Positions 55,805 to 64,000 of a DNA stretch of 64,000 bases are shown piece by piece (the stretch's first letter is position 1; each line of letters opens with the position of its first letter). The position numbers and the translations under genes are program-made. The DNA comes from Pontiella sulfatireligans (GTDB lineage: Bacteria; Verrucomicrobiota; Kiritimatiellia; Kiritimatiellales; Pontiellaceae): NCBI RefSeq assembly GCF_900890705.1, contig NZ_CAAHFH010000002.1, forward strand, positions 868,001 to 932,000, given 5' to 3'. The notes beneath the pieces are model-generated. The model made no database searches, was not told the DNA's origin, and saw only the letters and a program-made list of their open reading frames with translations.

Positions 55805-56797
55805 CTAGATCGCCGCAATTTCGTCGTAAAACCCGGTGTAGTCATCCTTGCGATCGCTGTCGCGCAATGCAATGGCCGTCCGAGGATGTTCATTGTAATG
55901 GCCCGTAATCATATAGGGAATGCTGTAGCCCCAGTCGATTTCCTGACTCAGCGGGTGCATGGTTTCCTGCACAAACTGAAGGATCGGACGAATGTTGAAC
56001 TTGGGATTCTTGAGGAACCCGACCAATAGCTCAGTCGGGCAGTTTCCGGCACCGCGTCCCATTCCCATCAAAGTGGTATCCAGAAGCTTCACTCCGTTGA
56101 TCGCCGCATAGATGGTATTGGCATAGGCAAGCTGCTGATTGTTGTGCGCATGAATCCCGAGAGTCTTCCCGGTCTTTTTATAGCGGTTGATCAGATCACC
56201 GACCTGCTCATAGTAAAGTGAGCCAAAACTGTCGACCACATAAAGGAAGTCGATTTCATCAACCGCGGCCACCGCTTCAAGGCCGTTGTCCAGTTCGTAG
56301 TCCGGCACAGTGGAGACCGCCATCAGGTTCAGCGCCACCTCATAGCCCTTCTGCTTGGCATCCTTCACGATTTCCAGCGCCGCCGGAATCTGGTGGATGT
56401 AGGTCGCCACGCGAATCAAATCCAAAACACTATCTTCACGGGGAAGAATATCGTCCAGATTGGTGCGGCCGGTGTCGGCCATAGCGCACAACTTCAGGCT
56501 GGAATCATTGTCGCCCACCTCGCGGCGGATGTCCTCTTCGCTTGAAAACTTCCACGGACCATTGTCGTTTCCAGAAAACAGCTTTTTATCGGCCTTGTAT
56601 CCGACTTCCATATAGTCGATGCCGCCGGCAACGCAGGTGTCGTAGACTTTCCTGAAAAAGCCCTCTTCAAATTTGTGGGCATTGCAAAGCCCGCCGTCGC
56701 GCACGGTGCAGTCAACAATCTTCAGATTCGGGTCGAAAGTCACCCAACCCGCACTTTGGTCCGTTGGCTCACTGCTGATGTCTCTTGCTTTAGTCAT
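55805..56797 (-). CDS. DRE-TIM aldolase-domain protein (HMG-CoA lyase-like)
   Basis: The 330-residue protein starts at ATG 56797 behind AAAGGAG. The TIM-barrel opens VDCTVRDGGLCN (the DRE-type metal site), with IDYMEVGYKADK, IHAHNNQQLAYAN (metal histidines) and GRGAGNCPTELLVGF. Members act as aldolases or lyases on 2-oxo acids; related proteins occur in surface-polysaccharide loci. The preceding 68 codons, open in the same frame, look like an integrase N-terminus, so I treat them separately. Confidence 0.8.
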   Translation of the reverse strand: MTKARDISSEPTDQSAGWVTFDPNLKIVDCTVRDGGLCNAHKFEEGFFRKVYDTCVAGGIDYMEVGYKADKKLFSGNDNGPWKFSSEEDIRREVGDNDSSLKLCAMADTGRTNLDDILPREDSVLDLIRVATYIHQIPAALEIVKDAKQKGYEVALNLMAVSTVPDYELDNGLEAVAAVDEIDFLYVVDSFGSLYYEQVGDLINRYKKTGKTLGIHAHNNQQLAYANTIYAAINGVKLLDTTLMGMGRGAGNCPTELLVGFLKNPKFNIRPILQFVQETMHPLSQEIDWGYSIPYMITGHYNEHPRTAIALRDSDRKDDYTGFYDEIAAI

Positions 56798-57001
56798 TTT
56801 TTTCTCCTTTAAACCTGTTCCTTTTTTCACGGCATCCACCTTATCAGCCATCCGCCTCTCCGCTTCTTCACGGTCCCCTGTCTGAAGCGATTCAGAGTAC
56901 TGGACACCCCGGATCCTCTGCCGCCAGTAGTAAACACCGCCCCTCAACTTCAGATTCTTGATTCCTGTTCCCTCAAATGTCGGCATGCGCATCACTCCCA
57001 A
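56798..57001 (-). pseudogene. N-terminal remnant of a tyrosine recombinase, in frame with the aldolase
   Basis: The codons before the aldolase start read LKLRGGVYYWRQRIRGVQYSESLQ and TGDREEAERRMADKV. This is the SAM-like/Arm DNA-binding start of phage-type integrases (LKLRGGxWYxRxxVxGKxYxxSL, then EAERRLAE). It breaks off at the aldolase ribosome binding site without a stop, so a long fusion protein is theoretically possible from GTG/ATG near 57001. Confidence 0.65.
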
Positions 57002-57327
57002 TGATCACATTTTTTATCATGTGATGCGCATTGATGCGCTTTTGGTCCCGACATGTCAACCTTGCGCTTGAAGCAGTTTAAAACAGGAATTGCTCTTAAA
57101 AGCGCAGAACACGAAAAGAAACCCCATACATTTATGATCTGCGATCTCTGTCGCTCTACGAAGGCCCTGCCCGACCCAACATGTAGGCAGGGAGCCCTCA
57201 CCCGGGAAAATACGCCCGGCCGGAGGACCGGGCCTACGGTACGCCTCCGTTTTACCGATGGTCTATCTTGCAACCTTTCACATGAAGGTTTACCTTCCTT
57301 TTTTTGAATTTTGGAGGGAATCAAATC
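57002..57327. other. Gap upstream of thyX with repeats
   Basis: No gene. It contains a hairpin ATCACAT/ATGTGAT (57004-57025), a doubled tgatgcgc (57022-57039), and a palindrome GCCCGG/CCGGGC (57214-57233) within a cluster of GC-rich repeats. The integrase remnant starts at its left edge. Confidence 0.55.
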
Positions 57328-58152
57328 ATGGCACACATCACCGTACCCGAAGCCGAAGCGTTGCTGGACCAGGAAATCAAGGTGCTCGACCACGGATTTA
57401 TCCGGCTGATCGACTATATGGGCAGCGACGCCCGCATCGTGCAGACCGCCCGCGTCTCCTACGGCGCCGGCACCAAGACCCTCCGCGAGGACGCCGGACT
57501 CATCGACTATCTTCTGCGCCACGAGCACACCTCCCCCTTCGAGCACGTCGTTTTCGAGTTCCATTGCAAGATGCCGATCTTCGTCGCCCGCCAGTGGATC
57601 CGCCACCGCACCGCCCGCCTCAACGAAATTTCCGGTCGCTACTCCGTCATGAAAGACGAGTTTTATGTGCCGTCGCGCGACAAGATCAGCTTCCAAAGCG
57701 CCGACAACAAGCAAGGGCGCAACCCCCAAGACGTCCCCCCCGAACTGCAGGACAAAGTCCTTGAACTGCTCAAGCAGGATCAGGCCAACGTCTACGGCAA
57801 CTATCAGGAAATGATCGACGACGACATCGCCCGCGAGCTCGCCCGCATCAACCTGCCGCTTTCCACCTATACCGAGTGGTACTGGCAGATGGACCTCAAA
57901 AACATGTTCCACTTCCTGCGCCTGCGCATGGACAGCCACGCCCAATGGGAAATTCAGGAATACGGCCGCGCCATGGCCGAAGTCGTCAAAGCCGTCTGCC
58001 CGCTCGCCTATGCTTCATTCGAGCGCCACATGGTTAACGGCGCGCGCTTCTCCGCCGACGAGCTCGATGCCATCAAGAAAGTCATGGCCGGCGAAGCCAA
58101 CCCGCTCGAAGGCCGTCGCCTCGAAGAGTTCCAGGCCAAACTCAACAAGTAG
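57328..58152 (+). CDS. thyX: Flavin-dependent thymidylate synthase
   Basis: The 274-residue enzyme makes dTMP from dUMP using FAD and methylenetetrahydrofolate. The ThyX motif is RHRTARLNEISGRYS, with RVSYGAGTK and HEHTSPFEHVVFEFH before it. ATG 57328 follows GGAGGG. No thyA is visible. Confidence 0.96.
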   Translation: MAHITVPEAEALLDQEIKVLDHGFIRLIDYMGSDARIVQTARVSYGAGTKTLREDAGLIDYLLRHEHTSPFEHVVFEFHCKMPIFVARQWIRHRTARLNEISGRYSVMKDEFYVPSRDKISFQSADNKQGRNPQDVPPELQDKVLELLKQDQANVYGNYQEMIDDDIARELARINLPLSTYTEWYWQMDLKNMFHFLRLRMDSHAQWEIQEYGRAMAEVVKAVCPLAYASFERHMVNGARFSADELDAIKKVMAGEANPLEGRRLEEFQAKLNK

Positions 58153-60846: not shown

Positions 60847-63800
60847 TTAAAACTCGTACATCACACGGGCGCTAACCGTGACCGCTTTGTATCGGTCGCT
60901 GAACTGACTGTCGACGTCGAGGACGATTTCGACCTGCTCGTCGAGCAACGTGCTGATGCCGGCGCCAAGCTCGAAGACGTTGTCGTCGGGCGCCTGCATG
61001 CCGAAGGTGTAGTTGCCGCCGGTGCCACCGGCGAGGGAGTAGCCGACCTTTTCGGGATCGTCTTTGAATTCGCGCAGCCAAAACGCGCGCACTTCCGGCT
61101 TGAGCAGCACCGAGCCGACCATCCGCTGCACGGCCAACGATGCGCCGAGGCGCGACTGCACGCTCCAGCGGTCGTATGAATCGACCTTGCGAGCAACGTA
61201 GTCCGATTTTTCGGTATAGCTTTCCTGATCGTACCAGCCCACAGACAGCGACATTTCGGGCGTGAACAAAACGCCGTCGCCGGCAAACTTGATTTCCCGG
61301 CCACCGCCGATATAAGCCGCATAGCTGTCGGCATCGAATTTGGCCTTCGCTTTGAACGCAGTGCCCGAATGGGTTTTAACGCGGCTGTGGCCGTAGCTGA
61401 AGTTTAGGTCGCCGAACCAATTGGCCGTGCCGAACGAGCTGTAGAGAATGCCGTAGCCGGTCTCCGCATCGGAGCCGTCGTGGTTGTTCTGGTCGATATC
61501 CGAATGGGCATAGCCACCGGCTGCACCGACCAAAATACCGCCATAGGATTTATCGAAACCGACCACCGTGCCGTAGACGTTCTGATCGTATCCGCTGAAC
61601 GAGCCGCTGCCGTCGCGGTCCGCCCAGGCGCCGTAGCCGCGCATCCAGCCGCGCAACCCTTGCTCTGCCTTGTGCGGCCCGGCGGCGCCTTCCGGCGTTG
61701 CGACGGAAGCTAGTGCGCCACGGCTCTGCGCCAGCACCTGCTTTTGCCCGCCAAACATGGCCTGCGCGTGCATATAGGTTGGGGCGCCCTGGTCGTAGCG
61801 CTGCGTCAGTTGCTTGCTCTGCTGCTCGCTCGACATGCCGTTGAGCAGATTGATCTGCGCCGCTGCGCCGGCGTCGCCGAGCATCGATATATCGTCGATC
61901 TCCTTCGAGAGCCGAGCCATTTCCGAACCGGGAGCGAACCCGGCGCTGTCGGCCAAATACTTGCGACCAACAAGGCCGTAGATATCCTGTTCGTTCTCCC
62001 ACAGCAGCACGTCCACCAGCGAGCCGTCGAGGTTGACCGCCTCGAGATCAATCGCATCGGCGTTGGTGACGCCGGCCACAATCAGCTGGTTCGCCTCAAC
62101 AATCAGGTTGGTGTAGAAAACGTCAAAGTCGAGCACGCCGACGTTGCTGTGGTACTGCAGCGTTGCGCCCTCTTCAAACTCGGCCGTTCCGCCGACGCTT
62201 ACGAGCGCGTTGAGCGGCGCGCCGGCCGCGTTGGTCTCGACGCCGAAGCGCAGGATGGACGTGGCATCCTGATAATAGTTGCTCGCCACCGAAACGTGGC
62301 CGCCAATCTCGATATCAACCAACGAATGGTTCCGGTTGTGCATATCGCGTCCGACCGACACCAATCCGCCGTCGCCGACATACAACGAGTTGCCCTGCCC
62401 GCCGTCGACCCACTCATTCTGCCAGCCATCGGAAGTCATGTAATAGTATTGCGACATCCGCCCGCCAATGTAGAGATCGCCGGAGTTGCGCCATTGGGAG
62501 TTGGTTCCAATCACCGAAACCGTATTGCTCCAGGCCGTGGCCGTTTCGCCAATAATTCCAGTCATGCTGAAGACCTGCGCGCCGTCTTCAACCAAAAGTG
62601 TATTGCCCGAGCCGCCCCGGCCCACCGACAGCTCGCCCCAACTGGCCATGGCCATTATGGGCTCCACCTGAATGGGGGGAGGACGATTGGTGATGGAAAT
62701 TGGCGCGTTGGTCGCGACAATGCCTCCAGCGCCACCGGTGAATATTCCATCCTGAATGACGAGGCTGTTGGTCGAACCAATCCAAAGTCCGGAGCCACCC
62801 GTGGCGCTTCCAAGACTGAGCTGGTTGGTGGAGACGGTCAACGTGCCGCCGCTGCCGCCCACAAAGCCACCGTTAGAAATGACCAGTTGATTGTTGGGAT
62901 TTAGATACAAGCCTTCCCCGCCCACAAACGATGCTCCGTTTGTCAAAATAAGCACACTGCCAGAGGGATTGTTTCCAATCACCAAAGAACCGCTTCCTGT
63001 AATCGATCCGCCACCCGGAATCACCGGCACCAGATTGGTTGGATACGGAGTTACAAAAGGCGGAGGGTTGGTAATTACGGGAGGCCAGCCAATCGGAGGC
63101 GTGATGACGATTGGCGGAAAATTCGTGCGCCAGGGAATTCCAATATCCGGGGGGACAGCAATAATTCGCTTCGAATACCAACCGCTGCTCAAGACGCTGT
63201 TTTCGCCGGACACCACCACCGAGTTATTGTCCGCGCCCTCGCCAAAGCCAATTGAACTTCCCCACCGCGTATGCGCATGGCCGCCATCCTCGATCCGCAG
63301 CGTATTGCCCGAACCGTTGTAGCCGACATGCAGCTGGCTGGAGCTGTCCCACATCGATCCTTCGCCGGACACCACGGCCGAATTTCCGGAAGCCGGCGCG
63401 GCGTAGCCAATGAAGCCTCCCGAGCTTTCAACCCGCCCGCCATCAACAATGGCCAGTTCATTTCCAGAACCATCGTAGCCCACATACAGGCTGGCGGAGT
63501 TATCCCACATCGACTCCTCGCCGGATACCAAGACCGAGTTGCCTGAGGCTGTCTCCTTATGGCCGATGTAGCCAAGCGTACTTTCAACCAATCCGCCATC
63601 AGCAATCAGCAAGCTGTTTCCTGTCCCCTCATAGCCCACGTTCAGGCCAACGGGTCCAACTGTAGAGCACACCCCTCCATAGCAGAGGTTGGTGCTGACA
63701 GGATAGAAGTCGTTAGCATTCCACAGCGCCCCCTCGCCGGACACTATCACCGTGTTCCCTGCTGAGGCTTCGCCCCCTCCAACATACCCGCCATAGCTCT

Positions 63801-64000
63801 CAAGACGGCCACCATTGAGGATGGACAGGCTGTTGCCCGAGCCTTCGCCACCAACAAACATGCTGCCGCTATTGCTCCAAACCGACCCGACGCCGTCAAT
63901 AAAAGCCGAGTTCCCGAACGCACCTTCGCTATGGCCTAAATATGCCACGAATGAAGAATCAACTCTGGCGCCATCTTCAATGCGCAGTGAATTTCCTGCC
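60847..64000 (-). CDS. Type V autotransporter, N-terminus outside window
   Basis: The frame stays open to base 64000 (reading AGNSLRIEDGARVDS before the first visible start-like codon), so the signal peptide lies outside. The passenger has roughly 54-residue repeats (SGEESMWDNSASLYVGYDG with SGNELAIVDGGRVESSGG), a proline-rich hinge (WRTNFPPIVITPPIGWPP), and GGFVGGSGG-type units. The C-terminal barrel (from about 61670 down) runs LRGWMRGYGAWADRDGSGSFS to VMYEF, with YDQESYTEKSDYVARKVDSYD in common with the other two autotransporters. Confidence 0.88.
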   Translation of the reverse strand, partial: AGNSLRIEDGARVDSSFVAYLGHSEGAFGNSAFIDGVGSVWSNSGSMFVGGEGSGNSLSILNGGRLESYGGYVGGGEASAGNTVIVSGEGALWNANDFYPVSTNLCYGGVCSTVGPVGLNVGYEGTGNSLLIADGGLVESTLGYIGHKETASGNSVLVSGEESMWDNSASLYVGYDGSGNELAIVDGGRVESSGGFIGYAAPASGNSAVVSGEGSMWDSSSQLHVGYNGSGNTLRIEDGGHAHTRWGSSIGFGEGADNNSVVVSGENSVLSSGWYSKRIIAVPPDIGIPWRTNFPPIVITPPIGWPPVITNPPPFVTPYPTNLVPVIPGGGSITGSGSLVIGNNPSGSVLILTNGASFVGGEGLYLNPNNQLVISNGGFVGGSGGTLTVSTNQLSLGSATGGSGLWIGSTNSLVIQDGIFTGGAGGIVATNAPISITNRPPPIQVEPIMAMASWGELSVGRGGSGNTLLVEDGAQVFSMTGIIGETATAWSNTVSVIGTNSQWRNSGDLYIGGRMSQYYYMTSDGWQNEWVDGGQGNSLYVGDGGLVSVGRDMHNRNHSLVDIEIGGHVSVASNYYQDATSILRFGVETNAAGAPLNALVSVGGTAEFEEGATLQYHSNVGVLDFDVFYTNLIVEANQLIVAGVTNADAIDLEAVNLDGSLVDVLLWENEQDIYGLVGRKYLADSAGFAPGSEMARLSKEIDDISMLGDAGAAAQINLLNGMSSEQQSKQLTQRYDQGAPTYMHAQAMFGGQKQVLAQSRGALASVATPEGAAGPHKAEQGLRGWMRGYGAWADRDGSGSFSGYDQNVYGTVVGFDKSYGGILVGAAGGYAHSDIDQNNHDGSDAETGYGILYSSFGTANWFGDLNFSYGHSRVKTHSGTAFKAKAKFDADSYAAYIGGGREIKFAGDGVLFTPEMSLSVGWYDQESYTEKSDYVARKVDSYDRWSVQSRLGASLAVQRMVGSVLLKPEVRAFWLREFKDDPEKVGYSLAGGTGGNYTFGMQAPDDNVFELGAGISTLLDEQVEIVLDVDSQFSDRYKAVTVSARVMYEF

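Follow-up and report, generated by a model that had tools for sequence, protein, structure and literature searches.

We identified, in a window of 64,000 nucleotides (the whole stretch of DNA analysed), a gene in which a DNA-binding-like domain of integrase type is joined in frame to a DRE-TIM aldolase. This is a real, conserved and apparently undescribed fusion of an enzyme with a DNA-binding domain; in the open literature, we found no paper on DUF6538, the family that the domain matches, and no description of an enzyme fused to a DUF6538-type domain. Since the fusion of these Pontiella-like marine bacteria is conserved in 21 related genomes, always behind the same repeat motif, the enzyme probably controls its own gene. 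The account that we cautiously favour is that the aldolase carries a domesticated integrase arm-binding domain with which it represses its own promoter, that an internal start yields the enzyme free of this domain, and that the segment of promoter, operator and domain has moved between aldolase lineages.

The minus strand carries an open frame from a TTG at 57001 to a stop at 55805-55807. A previous, sequence-only reading had placed an integrase-like N-terminus and the aldolase together in this frame, and the fusion indeed proved real. The sizes given there, 68 codons ahead of the aldolase and 397 residues overall, had to be revised. Upstream ATG codons are out of frame or missing in relatives, and the sole start common to them is the ATG that opens M-x-TFEGTG (ATG 56986 in the window), so the product should have 393 residues, comprising a 63-residue domain and the aldolase. 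In window coordinates, the gene is laid out as follows:

55805-56986, minus strand: fused coding sequence of 393 residues plus stop, with the arm-binding-like domain, a linker and the DRE-TIM aldolase (open frame; identical in-frame architecture in 21 genomes)
56798-56986, minus strand: N-terminal 63 codons, a DUF6538 / tyrosine-recombinase arm-binding-like domain (PF20172 match, hhalign, AlphaFold)
56804-56809, minus strand: internal Shine-Dalgarno sequence AAGGAG, preceding the aldolase start, ATG 56797 (AAGGAG in 19/21 fusions)
55808-56797, minus strand: DRE-TIM (HMGL-like) aldolase, 330 residues (PF00682, 74 bits; PDB 3dxi, E 1.3e-34)

The 63-residue domain matched Pfam DUF6538 (PF20172) at 31 bits against a cut-off of 27, and all 19 relatives tested matched this family at E<=1. 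Aligned by hhalign to the N-terminal regions of integrase-like proteins from the class and from the same genome, most of which, among those tested, carry PF00589, the domain reached a probability of 97.3 and an E-value of 2.3e-11 over 45 columns of the arm regions. Likeness to the DNA-binding start of a tyrosine recombinase had been proposed beforehand and made to depend on integrase similarity in a profile search; both searches recovered that similarity. A DUF6538 protein of the same genome is itself an integrase. Among phage records, the best match to the domain was a Pseudomonas phage integrase (35% identity), and among plasmid records a Sphingomonas frame of 691 codons that carries GLRNLRLRGGSYHWRRKI close to its start (41%), whose DUF6538 match is sub-threshold and which has no PF00589 match. 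Searches of the PDB by sequence and of PHROGs with the domain returned nothing, and viral contigs gave one weak match only, in a non-integrase frame. On these matches, we set aside the idea of a phage or viral donor of the domain.

The predicted structure is of the same kind. AlphaFold placed strands at residues 12-15, 18-25 and 28-34, followed by a helix at 39-54, with pLDDT of about 74-84 in the domain, moderate confidence for the model (pLDDT 74) and a low-confidence linker at about 61-82. The arm-binding fold has been described as three strands and one helix (PMC8138268). Foldseek found no significant PDB match for the small domain model, so the structural argument rests on topology and sequence. 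The catalytic PF00589 is absent from the fusion, in which Pfam reported no more than DUF6538, HMGL-like and a single weak match below threshold. Judged by its sequence, the fusion is therefore a member of the DUF6538/arm-domain family and, its catalytic domain being absent, not an integrase.

The aldolase part matched PF00682 at 74 bits, against a cut-off of 29, and PDB 3dxi, a ‘putative aldolase’, at E 1.3e-34. Residues D92, R96, D97, G98, H279 and H281, which form the DxxxRDG and HxH motifs, are invariant in 28 sequences. The top NCBIfam model was the 4-hydroxy-2-oxovalerate aldolase subfamily (TIGR03217), with 95.5 bits against an equivalog cut-off of 286. By profile and motif, the enzyme is a member of the DRE-TIM/HMGL-like superfamily. 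The aldolases split into type A, to which our locus belongs, and type B, which are 58-63% identical; in the tree, type B rows are fused without exception (15/15), and type A contains both fused and standalone genes.

We found the in-frame fusion in 21 genomes that represent three families of Kiritimatiellae, namely the family of the window (f1, n=7), f2 (n=12) and f25 (n=2); an eighth f1 genome, G014, shows an apparent C-terminal end of the domain at a contig edge. Conservation of the in-frame fusion in 21 genomes of three families excludes chance. These genomes are related and do not amount to 21 independent tests. No stop or frame change separates the domain from the aldolase in any of the 21 genomes. 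Nineteen aligned domains of 63 residues contain no indels and have a mean column identity of 83%, with the fold residues YYWRQ, SESLQT and EEA..RM conserved, and dN/dS of the domain is 0.10-0.12 among type A fusions. A peptide-pattern scan of 84,980 species genomes returned 12 records, all labelled Pontiellaceae, Kiritimatiellales, Kiritimatiellaeota or Verrucomicrobia, at least several of which are genomes already in our fusion set. By comparative sequence analysis, the fusion is old, common to the three families and under purifying selection. Whether all homologous aldolases share this N-terminus had been raised previously: many do, but some do not, among them orthologues at the same locus.

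At the border of the two parts, the codons TTA AAG GAG AAA AAA ATG also form a strong ribosome-binding site, as had been noticed from the sequence, and both the internal AAGGAG (56809-56804) and the aldolase ATG (56797) are conserved. AAGGAG stands at this border in 19 of the 21 fusions; the remaining two have AAGGAA and AAGGGG. Besides the border, it occurs just 4 times in 23,754 nt of fusion genes, where the synonymous AAA and GAA are common. Conservation of the border AAGGAG and ATG suggests two products: the fusion and a second, shorter one, the plain aldolase made from the internal start.

Upstream of the gene, all 21 fusions carry a direct pair of [G/A]CATCA copies at a spacing of 10 or 11 bp (one helical turn), together with an inverted TGATG[C/T] that precedes the ATG by 8-12 nt. 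This layout appeared in 0 of 105,000 shuffled upstream sequences, and the f25 fusions have a third direct copy upstream. The elements in the window are:

57054-57059, minus strand: presumed -35, TTGACA (in 21/21 fusions, TTGAC/TTGAT or a near variant precedes copy 1 by 20-22 nt)
57036-57031, minus strand: presumed -10, CATCAA (17 bp past the presumed -35, inside copy 1)
57032-57039, minus strand: operator-like direct copy 1, GCGCATCA (21/21 fusions, 10 or 11 bp from copy 2)
57022-57029, minus strand: operator-like direct copy 2, GCGCATCA (21/21 fusions, 10 or 11 bp from copy 1)
56987-56994, minus strand: inverted copy, TGATGCGC (adjoins the start codon on its upstream side and overlaps the ribosome-binding region)

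Because a -35-like hexamer lies 20-22 nt before copy 1, the presumed -10 would fall inside this copy and the transcription start near copy 2. A consensus promoter scan did not call this promoter in its own genome, and its -10, CATCAA, is poor; we therefore treat the assignment as presumptive. The inverted copy overlaps the ribosome-binding region (GGTGAT in many relatives). Overlap with promoter elements and with the ribosome site could account for part of the conservation of the repeats, and the repeats could be bound by another protein. Outside this promoter, the repeat pair at 10/11-bp spacing is not enriched in the searched genomes, which otherwise contain scattered single hits. We thus rejected a genome-wide regulon; a lack of pairs elsewhere is what is expected of a local autoregulator.

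Other readings of the repeats were set aside. The sequence-only reading had noted repeats at 57004-57039 and advised a search for attachment-like repeats in related genomes. The repeats are real and belong to the layout of all 21 fusions, and operator-like sites explain them better, given their identical placement over the presumed promoter and start and the absence of any sign of integration. In the few nearest integrases checked, we found no GCATCA repeats upstream. An RNA hairpin or attenuator formed with the inverted copy was likewise rejected. Four folded leaders did not outperform their shuffled versions (z -0.04 to -1.24), and variation among the copies shows no clear compensation, which favours recognition at the DNA level.

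Further upstream elements were seen in subsets of genomes. In type A fusions, direct copy 2 is separated from the inverted copy by a short inverted repeat, ATCACAT...ATGTGAT (57002-57025 in the window), whose arms differ among G000, G006, G005 and G017, seemingly keeping their pairing. Several f2 genomes (L165, L135, L136, L166) carry TTCAAA-N-TTTGAA some 10 bp ahead of the -35, which may be an additional site. Across the 21 fusions, direct copy 2 and the inverted copy stand either about 12-14 or about 31-34 bp apart, two classes that differ by roughly two helical turns.

Comparison of the two aldolase lineages pointed to transfer of the 5' part of the gene. Between type A and type B fusions, the domains are 73.8% identical and the aldolases 60.3%, with the domain higher in 60/60 pairs; within type B, the relation is reversed (domain 71.4%, aldolase 82.0%). 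When fused genes of both types were aligned with standalone type A genes, the type A fusions showed a pattern like MTKARDISSE-P-TDQSAGW, in which a type B start is joined to the type A M-SE-xxDKSAGW. The hexamer at the joint is common to the type B ...ISSE and the type A M-SE...:

56768-56773, minus strand: junction AGTGAG, where the putatively transferred 5' segment meets the type A aldolase (DNA alignment)

At the other end, DNA similarity to other type A fusions stops at about 57066-57082, just upstream of the -35. Given the identity pattern, the joint at AGTGAG and the end of similarity near the -35, a segment of about 300 bp that holds promoter, operator and domain most likely moved between the lineages as a unit. 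The fused type A aldolases do not form one clade (AU p 2e-5), and among type A fusions the synonymous difference of the domains is smaller than that of the aldolases, which together argue for more than one exchange or loss of the segment among type A genes. The standalone type A genes that we read are preceded by another conserved sequence, about TGCAAATAA.TGGTTAAAATATTCG; this sequence (in L005, L006, L008 and L010-L014) may be the operator of another regulator.

The fused gene has a divergent neighbour in the window:

57328-58152, plus strand: thyX, FAD-dependent thymidylate synthase (TIGR02170, 211 bits, cut-off 88)

Sixteen of the 21 fusions adjoin thyX (n=8) or thyA-folA (n=8), whose family assignments were confirmed, four standalone type A genes also adjoin thyX, and no thyA match was found in the genome of the window. 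At the level of gene order, the link of the aldolase to thymidylate and folate genes is clear. Our guess is that the aldolase supplies one-carbon units through 4-hydroxy-2-oxoacid aldol cleavage. In G006 (L125, 4288-4380 and 4493-5805), a 32-residue thyX remnant (residues 177-208) lies beside an intact thyA-folA ahead of the fusion, where relatives keep thyX; here one thymidylate synthase seems to have been replaced by the other, non-homologous one. In G046 (L142, 5799-7192), folB (dihydroneopterin aldolase) lies immediately beside the standalone aldolase, a further folate link. Elsewhere in the window, a 1033-codon frame at 60847-63948 has repeated glycine-rich units and an end like an autotransporter barrel.

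In the mechanism that we propose, the oligomeric aldolase would make the full-length protein multivalent, and its N-terminal domains would bind the tandem GCATCA repeats, where the bound fusion would block RNA polymerase. The level of the enzyme, perhaps in a substrate-dependent manner that would amount to metabolic sensing, would thereby set its own transcription. Initiation at the internal start would produce aldolase lacking the DNA-binding domain, thus supplying enzyme and tuning the valency of the repressor. A wider proposal, which we put forward tentatively and hold to be possible, is that an integrase arm domain was domesticated together with its repeats and promoter, yielding a compact autoregulatory cassette (about 300 bp) that could be transferred and was added to two aldolase lineages next to thymidylate synthase genes; the enzyme would then repress itself by DNA recognition of the recombinase type.

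The 63 codons might instead be mainly a translated leader, opening or coupling to the internal AAGGAG/ATG, with the plain aldolase as the main product and the fusion as a by-product. The nearly invariant internal AAGGAG and ATG, the domain-less standalone orthologues at the same locus and the fact that, in type A genes, the domain has diverged less at synonymous sites than the aldolase all agree with this. Such a leader would have no need of an integrase fold, yet YYWRQ, SESLQT and EEA..RM are conserved at a dN/dS of about 0.1, and the frame is kept unbroken between the parts in 21 genomes; we therefore regard a leader as unlikely.

Equally improbable in our view is a domain that functions without autoregulation, through oligomerisation, RNA binding or localisation, beside GCATCA sites that are the operator of another regulator. 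Co-occurrence is the sole tie between domain and repeats, and the structure search with the domain gave no significant match, both of which leave room for such a role; against it, domain and repeats are found together in 21/21 fusions, the standalone type A genes that we read have a different conserved sequence upstream instead, and hairpins of the leader RNA fold no better than shuffles. We rejected, as very improbable, a local remnant in which the 5' end of a mobile-element integrase landed before the aldolase, in frame by chance. Homology of the domain to integrase N-termini would fit this origin, but the domain is strongly constrained across three families, and the genome holds no second close copy of it. 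The same observations speak against one of the two alternatives offered earlier, that a mobile element had lost its catalytic part on joining.

If self-regulation by the fused aldolase holds true, it illustrates how the DNA-recognition part of a mobile-element recombinase can turn into a regulator of its host: this part stays together with its repeats and promoter, is linked to an enzyme and travels as one small unit. The few enzymes known to control their own genes would then be extended by a new DNA-binding fold, and DUF6538-type domains would gain a testable binding motif, GCATCA. It would also draw attention to an aldolase, so far uncharacterised, that has ties to genes of thymidylate and folate metabolism.

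Among known proteins, the arm-binding domains of tyrosine recombinases (PF20172; IntTn916-type fold) resemble the N-terminus of the fusion in sequence, predicted fold and N-terminal position, and both are associated with short tandem DNA repeats, binding being predicted in the fusion. Unlike tyrosine recombinases, the fusion has no core-binding or catalytic domain, is joined to a metabolic enzyme and shows no sign of recombination. With 4-hydroxy-2-oxovalerate aldolase and PDB 3dxi, it has the DRE-TIM/HMGL-like catalytic family in common, whereas its NCBIfam equivalog score lies far under the cut-off for the former. A related three-strand/one-helix DNA-binding fold was recruited for transcription control in the AP2/ERF and ApiAP2 transcription factors. 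Those factors (AP2-integrase fold; PMC6631176) are eukaryotic and dedicated to this role, and not enzyme fusions as here. Integrases such as phage P4 Int and IntI of PAI I-536 repress their own promoters (PMC7286903), and an arm-binding protein at sites over its own promoter would follow the same logic, although the fusion is not a recombinase. Among trigger enzymes, PutA is an accepted enzyme-repressor (PMC6978683). Like PutA, the fusion combines, at the sequence level, a catalytic enzyme and a DNA-binding module in one polypeptide, with operator-like repeats at its own promoter. Its DNA-binding fold and its enzyme differ from those of PutA, its autoregulation is predicted, and the internal start may give a second form; if binding holds, the fusion would work like a trigger enzyme.
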